Assembly (NCBI RefSeq): GCF_001426405.1
Contig: NZ_LMEP01000003.1
Span: forward strand, 1-64,000
Length of the DNA: 64,000 bases
Source of the DNA: Streptomyces sp. Root1304
GTDB taxonomy: Bacteria > Actinomycetota > Actinomycetes > Streptomycetales > Streptomycetaceae
Reading direction: 5' to 3'
Shown: positions 49,550 to 54,336 of the stretch, piece by piece
How positions within the stretch are numbered: position 1 is the stretch's first letter
Layout: every line of letters begins with the position of its first letter
Notes under the pieces: model-generated
Database searches by the model: none
What the model was told of the DNA's origin: nothing
What the model saw: the letters and a program-made list of their open reading frames with translations, nothing else
Translations under genes and position numbers: made by a program

Positions 49550-50185
49550 ATGAAGAAGCCGATCAGAAACCTCGCCGTCGTCGCCGGAGCCGCCTCGGCC
49601 GCGTTCGTCCTCGCCGTCAGCCCCGCCTCCGCGGTGGCCTCCACGGTCTGGACGGTCAACCCCAGCCCGGCCAGCTTCACCGCGACCAACAGCGGGAACA
49701 TCGTCCTGAGCGTCAACGGCATCGCCATGACGTGTACGAAGTCGAACGCCTCGGGCACGATGCAGAGCGCCACCGGCAACCCGGCGACGGTCGGATCCAT
49801 CAGCTCCATCGCCTTCGGCGTCAGCGGCACGCCCTGCACCAGCGTCCTGGGCAACGTGACCACCGTCCCGACCACCCCCTGGACGATCGTGGCGCAGGAC
49901 TACACCGCCGCCACCGGCGTCACCAAGGGCTACATCGGCAACGTCGACGCCACGGTGACCGTCGGCGCCTGCGTCTTCCGCGTGACGGGCAAGGCCTCCA
50001 GCACGTACACCAACTCGACCGGCAAGCTCACCGTCGCCAGCACCTCGGGCGAGCTGAACGTCGTCTCGTCGACCAACTGCGGCTCCGCCGTCCCGGTCGG
50101 CGCGAAGCCGCTCTTCACCGGCTCCTACCTCGCCAAGGTGTCGGGCACCACCACCATCCCGACGATCGTCGGCTCCAACCCGTAA
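49550..50185 (+). CDS. secreted protein, 211 aa, unknown function
   Basis: A 211-residue exported protein. A Sec signal peptide ([20 protein letters not shown], cleavage near residue 28) leads a beta-rich, Ser/Thr/Val/Gly-rich domain with four Cys (MTCTKS, TPCTS, GACVFR, TNCGS), probably two disulfides. No lipobox, LPXTG or membrane anchor. AAGGAG precedes the ATG by 12 nt. First of three secreted-protein genes that read away from the mce operon; function unknown. Confidence 0.8.
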
Positions 50186-50261
50186 GGACGCGGGCTGTCC
50201 GCACCCCGACCGTCCTCACCCCTTTCGCGCCCGCGCGCGCACGATCCGAGCGGAGCACCAG

Positions 50262-51911
50262 ATGAGAGGCCAGCGAGCCGCCCTGCGCACTTCCCGCGCC
50301 CCCGCGCGCGGCGCGGCGATCGCCGCACTCGTGGCACTCGCCCCCCTTCTCCCCGCGGCGGCCGTGGCCCTGGGCTCGCACGAGGTCGACGCCGAGATCC
50401 CGTATCTCTGCACCCTGCCCTCCGGCCCGCAGCCCGCGACGGTGCGGATCAGGGCCACCCTCCCCGAACGGGCCGCCGTCGGCGAGGAGATCCGGCCCAC
50501 CGACGTGACCACGACGCTGGAGCTCCCGGCCGCGGCCGTGGCCGACCTCGTCGCGCTGAAGGCCGCCACCGTCCGCGCGGAGACACAGCTCACGGTCGGC
50601 GCGGCCCAGAACGGACAGGCCACGGAAGCCGTCTGGCGCGGCACGGCGGAGCCCCTCGCCGTCCCCGCCGAAGGACCCCTCGCGCTCACGACGACCGGCG
50701 ACGTCCCGATCCTGACGACGGACACCGCGGGCGACCTGGCCCTCACCGCCGGGGGCCTGGCCGTGGACCTCGCGCCGAGCACCGCCGACGGCGCGGCCAC
50801 CACTCCCGCCGCGCTCTCCGTCGGCTGCGTCCCCGGCCAGGACGCGCAGGACCGCACCCGGCTCGCCACGGTCCCGGTCGGGACCGGCGTCCCCGGCGGA
50901 GAACCGAGCACGCCGCCCGCCTCGCCGTCCGGCCCCGTCCCGCCCTCCTCCTCGTCCCCCGTGCCCGGGCCGGACGCCCCGACGGCGCCGGTGACCGAGG
51001 GCGGGAAGGGCCAGGACGGTACGGGCGGGACGACGGACGGCCCGGCCGGGAAGGGCCCGCAGGCCGGACCCCAGGTGGAGGACGGCGCGAAGGCCGCCGA
51101 CGCGAACACGCCCGGCACCTCGTCGGGCCGCCGTGTCGCGCCGCCCTGCGTGACCGAGAAGCCGACCCCCACGTCCTTGTCGGCGTACATCACCGGCTAC
51201 TCCAACGTGCGGAAGCTGAACGGCGCCTCGCTCATCCCGCTCTCCTGCGTCCAGATCGAACAGGGCACACCGGAGATCGAGTTCCGCCCGGACGGCACCC
51301 TGCACCTGGTCCAGAAGTCGGTGGGCGGCCTCTCCTACCAGGGGCGCCAACAGTCCCCGCCCTTCGAGTCCACCTTCCTGACCTTCGGCTTCGCCCCGGT
51401 CACGGCGACGATGGTGCTGGAGCAGACGGGCCCCATGAGCGTCGAGTCGGACATCCTCCTCGTCTTCCCCGACAACATCGCGGAGACCTACATCCGGGTC
51501 CCCCTGGTCCTGCGCGTCCTCGACGTCCGGGTCAACGGCACCCGGCTGGACGTCGGCCCCTCCTGCCGCACGGCGAAGCCGATCACCTCCCCCGAGCCCC
51601 AGCCCGCCAAGTACCCCGGGGACCACATGGTCCTCCTCGGCAAGGGACAGCTCATCAACGGCACCGACGCCACCGGATACGTCCTCACCGGCGGCGGCCC
51701 GCTCACGGGCGAGGTGGACATCCCCGCCTTCAAGGGCTGCGGCGCCGGCGGCGAGAACCTCGACCGGCTCCTCACCGCCTCCATCTCCGGGTCCGGCAAC
51801 TACATCAAGCAGACCCAGGGCCAGACCTGCGCCGTGGGCGTCGAGGTGCCCACCGAGGGCCAGTGCACCGAGGACCGTCAGCCGTACGTGGTCCCCAAGC
51901 CCGAGCGCTGA
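50262..51911 (+). CDS. secreted DUF6801-domain protein, 549 aa
   Basis: A 549-residue exported protein. After the signal peptide (GAAIAALVALAPLLPAAAVA) comes a DUF6801 beta-domain (about 40-205; IPYLCTLPSGPQPATVRI is typical), then a Pro/Ser/Gly/Asp-rich linker (about 210-290) and a second beta-rich domain to the end with the pattern TGYVLTGGGPLTGEVDIPAF. Cys residues are paired through the mature part. No sortase signal. The linker and two-domain layout suggest an envelope-associated or adhesive protein. DUF6801 has no assigned function. Confidence 0.82.
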   Translation: MRGQRAALRTSRAPARGAAIAALVALAPLLPAAAVALGSHEVDAEIPYLCTLPSGPQPATVRIRATLPERAAVGEEIRPTDVTTTLELPAAAVADLVALKAATVRAETQLTVGAAQNGQATEAVWRGTAEPLAVPAEGPLALTTTGDVPILTTDTAGDLALTAGGLAVDLAPSTADGAATTPAALSVGCVPGQDAQDRTRLATVPVGTGVPGGEPSTPPASPSGPVPPSSSSPVPGPDAPTAPVTEGGKGQDGTGGTTDGPAGKGPQAGPQVEDGAKAADANTPGTSSGRRVAPPCVTEKPTPTSLSAYITGYSNVRKLNGASLIPLSCVQIEQGTPEIEFRPDGTLHLVQKSVGGLSYQGRQQSPPFESTFLTFGFAPVTATMVLEQTGPMSVESDILLVFPDNIAETYIRVPLVLRVLDVRVNGTRLDVGPSCRTAKPITSPEPQPAKYPGDHMVLLGKGQLINGTDATGYVLTGGGPLTGEVDIPAFKGCGAGGENLDRLLTASISGSGNYIKQTQGQTCAVGVEVPTEGQCTEDRQPYVVPKPER

Positions 51912-52908: not shown

Positions 52909-53124
52909 CGGCCACCCAGGGGCGATTACCGGCCGAGTCGACTCCACAGAGCCCTGCGGGCGGATCTACTCCTGCTCAAGTTGTGTACAGCACACAGCAG
53001 TTGTCCTAGCTTCAGCAGTCAACGTCGGTACGTAACCGACGGCAACGGCGGCGCCCTCCGCACCAGGTCGGGCGCCGCACCGCCGCTCCCCCACCGGTCA
53101 CGTAGCAGAGCAAGGGATCGGTTC

Positions 53125-54336
53125 ATGCCCGCAACCACACAGACACCGCACATCGGTGAACCGCTCGATCCACTCCCCCGGGAGTTCGCCGCCCTGATGA
53201 GACCGGAGATCCCGGGCCTGATCAAGGAGATCGGCGTGGAGGTCCAGCGGGCCTACCCCGTGTACGCCCACCTCTTCAAGGGACCCCACTCGGACGCGAT
53301 CCGGCTGGGCGTGGAGCAGGCGCTCGCGGCGTTCGTGGAACGGGTCGCGGACCCCGGGCGGAACTCGGCGCTCCGGGACGAACTGCTGCGCAAGTTCGGC
53401 CGGGTGGAGGCCTACGAGGGCCGGGACCTCGACACCCTGCAGGGCGCGTACCGCCTCGGCGCGCGCATCGCGTTACGGCGGGCCAAGAGCATCGGCCGCA
53501 CGTACAACCTCTCCCCCACGCTGATCCTGGCCTTCGCCGACGCCCTCTTCGCCTACGTCGACGAACTGGAGTCCCTCTCCCGCGAGGGCTATCTGATGGT
53601 CCAGGCCCGAGCGGTGACCGATGTGGCGGCGCTGCGAAGACAGTTGCTCCACCTCGTCGTCGCCGGCCCCCCGCTCCCCCGGGCCACCATCGCCGAACTG
53701 TGCCAGGAGGCCTCCTGGCAGCTCCCCTCCGAATGCACCCTGGTGGCGCTCCGGCCCCCGGTCGCCGAACTCGTCCAGGCGGCCCTCGACCGTGACGTCC
53801 TCGCCGACCTCACGCTCCCCGAGCCGCACCTGCTCATCCCCGGCCCGCTCACCTCCGAGCGCCTCGCGATGCTCGGCTCCGCCCTGGCCGGCACCCCCGC
53901 CGCCATCGGCCCGACCGTGCCGGCCGCGCAGGCCGCGCACTCCATCCGCTGGGCGCGGCGCGTCCTCCAGCTCATCGACGACGGCATCGTGCCGGACGCC
54001 CCCGTCGTGCACTGCGAGGACCACCTGACAACGTTGTGGCTGCTGTCCGACCCGGCACTCGTCGCCCATCTCACCCGGCGCGAACTGGCCCCGCTGGACA
54101 GTCTGTCCGGCACCCGGCGGGAGCGGCTGATCGAGACGCTGCGCGTCCACATCTCGACCCGCGCCCCCGCCGAACAGGTCGGCGAGATGCTGGGCGTGCA
54201 CGCCCAGACGGTCCGCTACCGCCTGCGGAACCTGGACAACCACTTCGGCGACCGGCTGCTCGACCCCGACCACCGCTTCGCGCTCGAAGCGGCCCTCCGC
54301 TCACTGCACCTCCAGAACGGGAAACGGGCGGACTGA
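53125..54336 (+). CDS. PucR-type transcriptional regulator
   Basis: A 403-residue regulator with the PucR C-terminal HTH_30 domain: LIETLRVHISTRAPAEQVGEM, then LGVHAQTVRYRLRNLDNHFG (about residues 345-390). The N-terminal half is a helical region (VEVQRAYPVYAHLF) resembling the RsbR/globin-like sensing part of actinobacterial members, with no known ligand. ATG 53125; upstream is a 216-bp gap with TTGTGT/TAGCTT boxes spaced 20 nt, too long for confidence. As the last gene of the secreted triad it is the prime candidate to control it. Confidence 0.86.
   Translation: MPATTQTPHIGEPLDPLPREFAALMRPEIPGLIKEIGVEVQRAYPVYAHLFKGPHSDAIRLGVEQALAAFVERVADPGRNSALRDELLRKFGRVEAYEGRDLDTLQGAYRLGARIALRRAKSIGRTYNLSPTLILAFADALFAYVDELESLSREGYLMVQARAVTDVAALRRQLLHLVVAGPPLPRATIAELCQEASWQLPSECTLVALRPPVAELVQAALDRDVLADLTLPEPHLLIPGPLTSERLAMLGSALAGTPAAIGPTVPAAQAAHSIRWARRVLQLIDDGIVPDAPVVHCEDHLTTLWLLSDPALVAHLTRRELAPLDSLSGTRRERLIETLRVHISTRAPAEQVGEMLGVHAQTVRYRLRNLDNHFGDRLLDPDHRFALEAALRSLHLQNGKRAD

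Follow-up and report, generated by a model that had tools for sequence, protein, structure and literature searches.

In mycobacteria and Gram-negative bacteria, the tunnel of a mammalian cell entry (MCE) system meets a second membrane. Streptomyces has no outer membrane, and this locus raises the question of how, and why, bacteria of this kind run MCE systems. We address it in Streptomyces sp. Root1304, using a stretch of 64,000 nucleotides (positions 1 to 64,000 of NZ_LMEP01000003.1, which is contig 3 of a 7.58 Mb genome) that is called the window below. In the window, three genes for secreted proteins (P1, P2 and P3) and a gene for a PucR-type regulator (P4) lie opposite an mce operon. The genus has two mce lineages, and the secreted module stands beside only one of them. 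The explanation we favor, with about even chances of being right, is that P1-P3 are secreted partners of this importer lineage which handle hydrophobic ligands and are controlled together with the importer.

The locus

An earlier note on this DNA, made from its letters alone, had described the three secreted-protein genes, the second of them with a DUF6801 domain, followed by a PucR regulator ending at 54336 and diverging from a complete mce operon across 520 bp. Our analysis confirmed the genes, their coordinates and the divergence. The features are as follows (aa, amino acids; ABC, ATP-binding cassette).

49550-50185, + strand: P1, secreted protein of 211 aa with 4 Cys and a predicted signal peptide
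50262-51911, + strand: P2, secreted protein of 549 aa with 8 Cys; DUF6801, disordered linker and C-terminal beta-barrel-like domain
about 51129-51908, + strand: P2C, the C-terminal domain of P2, predicted to be beta-barrel-like
51967-52908, + strand: P3, secreted protein of 313 aa with 6 Cys, predicted closed beta-barrel
53125-54336, + strand: P4, PucR-type regulator of 403 aa with HTH_30 at the C-terminus
49030-49549, no strand: control region of 520 bp between Mkl and P1
48013-49029, - strand: Mkl-type ABC ATPase of the mce operon
47252-48016, - strand: YrbEA, MlaE family permease
46440-47246, - strand: YrbEB, MlaE family permease
39562-46438, - strand: six mce genes, with MlaD domains from 46085, 44829, 43786, 42776, 41670 and 40492

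The start of P4 was taken as ATG 53125; the list of open reading frames (ORFs) also holds a longer frame from TTG 52981. According to the profile search, the divergent operon is complete, with one Mkl ATPase, two YrbE/MlaE permeases and six MlaD-domain Mce proteins, and the locus is an actinobacterial MCE ABC importer. The earlier note had titled its finding an export module. This name is unsupported, as MCE systems of this kind are established as importers.

Association with mce in Streptomyces

We searched 246 genomes of the genus with DUF6801 and MlaE permease profiles. DUF6801 was found in 88 genomes and the permease in 126; both were present in 78, DUF6801 only in 10, mce only in 48 and neither in 110. 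In 72 of the 78 genomes with both, the DUF6801 gene lies 2.0-4.5 kb from yrbE, and it is always upstream of mce. Two further genomes (G344, G497) have the two on different contigs, and in two others (G454, G411) the mce positions were outside the rows considered, leaving them unplaced relative to DUF6801. The triad had been expected to lie mainly away from mce loci if the proposed link were wrong; it does not, and the functional link to mce, offered earlier from neighbourhood, is thus strongly supported. The conservation of the association also answers the suggestion that the adjacency is mere chance. A shared divergent control region was part of the same proposal and is present in the window; it does not hold as a general rule, since 42 of the 72 linked DUF6801 loci are on the same strand as mce and 30 are divergent.

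Best yrbEA scores barely overlap between the genomes in which mce stands beside DUF6801 (218.6-231.6 bits) and 47 DUF6801-negative genomes (230.8-237.7 bits; the 48th, G466, is outside this comparison). These two nearly separate groups indicate two mce lineages in the genus, with the module beside one of them. Three genomes (G301, G417, G460) carry both lineages and have the module beside one lineage only. A second low-scoring MlaE match was seen at a contig edge in G484, a DUF6801-negative genome that is 81% complete.

To count the whole gene set, we took the 66 loci that were fetched in full and contain both DUF6801 and Mkl, neighbourhoods of about 20 kb for which P2 was the bait. PucR was present in all 66, P1 in 65 and P3 in 56. 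Gene order and strand vary, including PucR- P3- P2- P1- Mkl+, PucR- P3+ P1+ P2+ Mkl+ and PucR- P1+ P2+ P3+ Mkl+ among other arrangements, and so does the copy number of the module genes between loci. With few exceptions, mce-linked loci have the secreted genes flanked by PucR on one side and Mkl on the other, and a few contain an additional P2-like gene on the outer side of PucR. With P3 from named genomes as a second bait, P1, P2, PucR and Mkl were all present in the 66 of 66 full-length loci obtained from the best 80 of 195 relatives, a set that overlaps the first and is not independent of it. The closest named P3 match among those listed is from Streptomyces litmocidini (92% identical). No module gene was detected in six mce loci of the other lineage (L011, L127-L130, L132), and neither P1, P3 nor PucR was found in ten lone DUF6801 loci (L045, L051, L053, L056, L061, L062, L073, L083, L111, L112).

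Extra short C-domain proteins were observed outside PucR in two loci (L010:17910-18698, L091:4912-5700) and on another contig in one genome (G743:C5:277412-277939). Across the genus and class samples, ten genomes have at least five DUF6801 matches each, ranging from 5 to 11 (G618, G728, G779, G749, G811, G819, G409, G411, G365, G517); several of these matches fall within one protein or in tandem, and many are away from mce.

Distribution beyond the genus

In a class-level sample, DUF6801 was positive in 24 of 325 genomes. Nineteen of the 24 were examined for MlaE, and in five of them (G811, G819, G779, G618, G728) the DUF6801 gene precedes yrbE by 1.5-2 kb on the same strand. P1 was positive in 21 of 246 class genomes at E<=1e-3. 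Eleven of these had matches with E<1e-20 (six Streptomyces, G741, G652, G214, G626 and G598), and all eleven have a copy upstream of an mce operon. Four of the ten genomes with weak P1 matches were followed for mce: three have none (G614, G630, G691) and one has mce on other contigs (G679). P2C was positive in 20 of 306 class genomes, with a copy upstream of mce in 14 (G000, G107, G171, G246, G496, G743, G741, G626, G652, G214, G598, G661, G803, G749); G636 and G687 are P2C-positive without mce. In one more genome, G771, the 14.5 kb fetched, which reach the end of a contig, contain a PucR gene, two genes each for P1 and P2C, and no mce gene; its mce status was judged from that stretch only.

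By family, P2C is associated with mce in f1, f7, f84 and f108, P1 in f1, f7 and f84, and PucR in f1 and f7. For f84 and f108, the sequence fetched around these loci contained no PucR gene, and P3 was missing from the loci examined in f7, f84 and f108. Family f7 has the C-domain as separate secreted proteins, encoded next to PucR genes and an Mkl-YrbEA fusion. The tree of yrbEA (53 rows from selected loci, rooted with four yrbEB, FastTree support values) places the loci bearing P1 or P2C, which are 29 Streptomyces loci, f84, f108 and six f7 loci, in one clade with support 0.985. The sister group of this clade is the module-less lineage of Streptomyces; L251 and the five f7 loci that have DUF6801 alone are placed elsewhere.

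Two forms of f7 loci deserve description. In those with P1 or P2C, the Mkl ATPase and the YrbEA permease are encoded in one ORF, of 586-619 aa in the clearest cases (L287:11797-13554, L288:11200-13056, L292:8512-10269, L293:8288-10060; also L252 and L286), and in L292 and L293 both profiles match the single ORF. This natural fusion ties the ATPase to the permease. In five others (L239, L241, L242, L243, L255), a DUF6801 protein is directly upstream of Mkl and P1, P2C and PucR are not beside it; these may represent a simpler and distinct version of the partnership. In the phylum sample, tblastn found no module gene adjoining DUF6801 in G121, G294 and G118.

These distributions bear on two other explanations. 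The block could have been kept only through genome relatedness, as all Streptomyces loci share ancestry and the module-bearing mce lineage is one clade. Yet the window's next genes are rarely kept in the 66 fetched loci (cytochrome P450 in 5, sigma factor in none, at >=100 bits), gene order and strand are reshuffled inside the block, the six loci of the other lineage lack the module, and where a genome has both lineages, as three do, only one of them has the module at its side. Synteny by descent is already disfavoured by these observations, and we consider it very improbable.

The second explanation is that the secreted proteins are conserved neighbours with an independent surface job, such as adhesion or a spore or wall function, and stand beside mce for shared regulation only. 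It would account for the stand-alone DUF6801 genes away from mce, for some P2C copies away from mce and for a further strong P1 copy in G741 on another contig (contig 28); and a secreted protein whose gene is bound by GlnR, as in S. venezuelae (PMC3087709, part of the text), may serve general nutrient scavenging. It fits less well with the copy beside mce in all eleven strong-P1 genomes, with the presence of Mkl beside all the full-length named P3 loci, and with an association of P2C and mce that holds in four families despite rearranged gene order. We regard such an independent job as clearly unlikely.

Next to PucR, the window also contains, at 54364-59922, a terpene-oxidase-like cytochrome P450, a sigma factor with a weak SnoaL-like tail, a FAD/NAD oxidoreductase and an acyl-CoA dehydrogenase.

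Sequence features and predicted folds of the secreted proteins

P2 matches DUF6801 (PF20611) with 89.9 bits against a cut-off of 26, and no Pfam or NCBIfam family was found for P1 or P3 at E<=0.1. Each of the three proteins has a single N-terminal hydrophobic segment and an even number of cysteines (4, 8 and 6), and their sequences contain no lipobox, no LPxTG sorting motif and no second membrane segment. On these grounds, the earlier description of P1-P3 as exported and disulfide-rich is a fair one as a prediction, and we infer their secretion. In 61 sequences of mature P1, C34, C68 and G119 are invariant, and C113 and C149 are conserved in at least 90%. No credible relative of P1, P2 or P3 with a solved structure was found by sequence. 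Common ancestry of P3 and P2C was considered and was not supported by profile comparison (hhalign probability 1.7%, E 0.029), though the two may still be alike in fold. The PucR regulator matches PF13556, a C-terminal helix-turn-helix, with 47 bits against a cut-off of 27, and its residues 1-330, in which an N-terminal sensor domain was sought, have no Pfam domain above cut-off.

A model of P3 from a 50-sequence alignment has a pLDDT of 88.4, a pTM of 0.83 and 13 strands of three or more residues. With VIA-align, it gave NspA at Z 8.9 (rmsd 3.3, 148 aligned), OmpA at 7.3, the YceI-type structure 1wub at 7.3 (rmsd 4.5, 139 aligned), DynF at 7.0 and retinol-binding protein at 4.5; a BFVD fold search of P3 returned nothing at E<=1e-3. 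The model of P2, from 68 sequences, consists of two confident domains joined by a disordered linker. Its DUF6801 domain matches 3lso, a putative membrane-anchored corynebacterial protein, at Z 12.1 (rmsd 3.0, 150 aligned), and P2C gave DynF at Z 9.8 (rmsd 4.6, 168 aligned), with OmpA and OmpW both at 9.4. P3 and P2C are thus predicted to resemble up-and-down closed barrels, a shape common to soluble lipid carriers and outer-membrane pores. Where an outer membrane is absent, a carrier would be the more natural of the two. The earlier suggestion that the proteins capture a hydrophobic substrate is compatible with these predicted folds; the ligand itself is still a proposal.

The same models allow a structural role, in which the secreted proteins would not be carriers and would instead lengthen the Mce tunnel, or fix it in place, across the thick wall as a sleeve, cap or docking ring. 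A tight association with one mce lineage fits part of a complex equally well, P2C matches the membrane-type barrels OmpA and OmpW as well as a lipocalin-like one, and the beta-rich DUF6801 domain matches a membrane-anchored protein. Against this stand the missing lipid anchor, sorting signal and second membrane segment in P1-P3, a copy number and gene order that are loose for a fixed ring, and the loci without P3. We think this role unlikely, less so than an independent surface job.

Regulatory elements

Two palindromes and two putative GlnR boxes lie in the control region.

49138-49155, no strand: operator-like palindrome TTGTCACCGTGGAGACAA, centre 117 bp before Mkl
49171-49188, no strand: second operator-like palindrome TTGTCTCCACGGAGACAG, 1 mismatch, centre 150 bp before Mkl
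49436-49451, + strand: GlnR site GTTTCCCGCAAGTAAC, identical to the site before Sven_0812/SCO2423 in the accessible part of PMC3087709
49230-49245, + strand: possible second GlnR box GCTACGGCCGAGTAAC, 1 mismatch to GTnAC-n6-GTnAC

The pattern TTGTCNCCNNGGNGACAA has one exact match in the whole genome (49138) and one match with one mismatch (49171); TTGTCTCCACGGAGACAG lies 33 bp farther from mce than TTGTCACCGTGGAGACAA. At two mismatches there are seven more, compared with six for a reversed control pattern. Among 71 module loci of Streptomyces, TTGTC-N7/8-GACAA occurs exactly within 400 bp before Mkl in 57 (0.05 in dinucleotide shuffles) and with up to one mismatch in 61 (1.25 in shuffles), and exact copies were absent before mce in the six module-less loci. 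The form with N8 is found mostly in divergent loci and that with N7 mostly in same-strand loci. In 9 of 11 loci with the order PucR- P3+ P1+ P2+ Mkl+, a one-mismatch copy, TTGTCA-N5-TGCCAA, sits around the P1-P2 junction, 1.9-2.5 kb before Mkl.

In other families, where palindrome positions rest on estimated gene starts, the palindrome was exact in three of eight module loci (L252, L287 and L288 of f7, at -141 to -151) and had one mismatch in two (L244 of f84, L292 of f7). It was not found before mce, at up to one mismatch, in L286 and L293 (f7) and L294 (f108), nor in any of the five f7 loci where DUF6801 occurs alone. It is exact in three of the five PucR-bearing f7 loci (L252, L286, L287, L288, L293). 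A palindrome that is unique to the locus and retained alongside PucR in two families implicates the local regulator. It is therefore plausible from these sequences that the local PucR reads the palindrome before mce, with a correlation that is incomplete and with the binding itself deduced. PucR control as the earlier note proposed it gains this much.

The 16-mer GTTTCCCGCAAGTAAC before P1, which that note missed, has an expectation of 0.01 in the window at up to two mismatches. In a GlnR ChIP-chip study of S. venezuelae, of which part was available (PMC3087709), the same site is listed for Sven_0812, homologue SCO2423, annotated as "Secreted protein"; in the same table, GlnR peaks also adjoin genes for a probable secreted lipase and for FadE. 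In S. coelicolor, the Mkl of the mce operon is SCO2422, and mce6-type operons are present in this species and in S. avermitilis (Casali and Riley 2007, PMC1810536, part of the text). From this position and the identical upstream 16-mer, we infer that SCO2423/Sven_0812 is the P1 orthologue. By analogy, in vivo GlnR data from this relative would tie the module to nutrient status.

Boxes like GCTACGGCCGAGTAAC are found at a similar place in many loci. With up to one mismatch, a GTnAC-n6-GTnAC box was present at no more than 300 bp from 109 of 167 P1 genes (12.4 in shuffles), 49 of 172 P2 genes (11.0) and 25 of 139 P3 genes (9.2); these counts use mononucleotide shuffles, include duplicate loci and take distance from the start of the profile match. 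Consensus GlnR boxes are not enriched in the window as such (14 seen, 17.2 expected), so the case for GlnR rests on the exact 16-mer and on conservation.

A working model and its weight

In the explanation we favor, P1, P2 and P3 would leave the cell by general secretion and work on the outer side of the membrane, within the wall or past it. P2C and P3, as closed beta-barrels, would hold a hydrophobic compound, for instance a sterol, a fatty acid or an isoprenoid, and hand it over to the Mce tunnel, with DUF6801, and presumably P1, as beta-rich docking or wall-binding parts. The PucR of the cluster may read TTGTC-N7/8-GACAA before mce and switch the importer, and the module too where the control region is shared, and GlnR may add nitrogen status at the P1 promoter. 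In its fullest form, the proposal is that dedicated secreted beta-barrel carriers feed one MCE lineage in actinobacteria without an outer membrane, as a functional counterpart of MlaC/MlaA built from unrelated families and switched together with the importer by PucR at this palindrome. We put this fuller form forward tentatively, as somewhat less probable than the general one.

Several observations weigh against partners that handle ligands under common control. As to linkage, DUF6801 is more than 1 Mb from mce in two genus genomes (G412, G479) and occurs without mce in 10 of the 88 positive ones; P3 is missing from 10 of the 66 fetched loci; P2C is unlinked to mce in G618, G728 and G779; and in G749 eight of nine P2C copies are on other contigs, with one upstream of mce. 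As to fold, P3 and P2C have no detectable sequence relationship, Foldseek gave no match at E<=1e-3 for either the P3 or the P2 model, the best Z values of 8.9 (P3) and 9.8 (P2C) are little higher than the 7-8 that VIA-align typically gives as best without a clear match, and the best matches mix lipocalin-like carriers with outer-membrane pores. As to control, 14 of the 71 module loci are without an exact palindrome; same-strand loci have it before mce and not before the first module gene; two of the five PucR-bearing f7 loci lack it even at one mismatch; and a PucR gene was not detected in L294, nor in L244 and L292 despite their one-mismatch palindrome. The transcript beside the GlnR site, Sven_0812, changed 1.3-fold in a glnR mutant (PMC3087709, part of the text), a small change that counts against a strong effect of GlnR under the conditions studied.

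Deletion of the mce cluster in S. coelicolor permits rapid spore germination inside amoebae and lowers root colonisation, according to the available part of PMC8401907. These phenotypes indicate that the importer matters to the cell and do not name its substrate. A study of rubber degradation, also available in part, proposes Mce as an importer of isoprenoid acids (PMC8538451). The accessible text of a paper on yeast predation (PMC13170338) does not mention mce, mammalian cell entry, PucR or DUF, and "sco2425" in PMC12838073 appears to be a slip in a sentence on sco7424 and sco7425 and is irrelevant here. We found no description of the module in the literature on DUF6801 or on mce operons with PucR, a search whose coverage mostly leaves out subscription journals; for mce operons with PucR, it turned up work on furA in a mycobacterium.

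A conserved set of secreted partners would provide named proteins for substrate capture and a pair of importer and module with which to look for the substrate. It would also suggest, for the first time, a role for DUF6801 and for three families that Pfam does not name (P1, P2C and P3), and a candidate operator for a PucR-type regulator in Streptomyces.

Comparison with known systems

MlaC is a soluble lipid carrier of an MCE system, and MlaA is a synonym of VacJ. Soluble lipid carriage is the role proposed here for the secreted module; the likeness to MlaC is one of proposed role, and P1 and P3 have no Pfam match. VacJ and the Mas proteins (PMC1810536, part of the text) are further examples of proteins other than Mce that cooperate with an MCE transporter or have their genes next to one. 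The Mas genes are mostly downstream of mce in that account, whereas the secreted module is upstream. The locus further resembles the mce6-type operons in having an Mkl ATPase directly upstream of yrbEA, and S. coelicolor has the same six Mce and two YrbE proteins; the accessible text of PMC1810536 treats Mkl and the downstream Mas proteins and does not mention an upstream secreted module or PucR. The neighbour of SCO2422 in S. coelicolor, SCO2423, carries the annotation of a secreted protein, and the S. venezuelae GlnR target Sven_0812 has the identical 16-bp site before the corresponding gene; the gene is listed there as "Secreted protein", with no link to mce drawn in the part available (PMC3087709). 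Finally, calycin-like carriers such as the YceI polyisoprenoid-binding proteins, DynF and retinol-binding protein are up-and-down closed barrels, a shape to which the predicted folds of P2C and P3 may correspond; they have no sequence match to P2C or P3, and the structure scores are near background.

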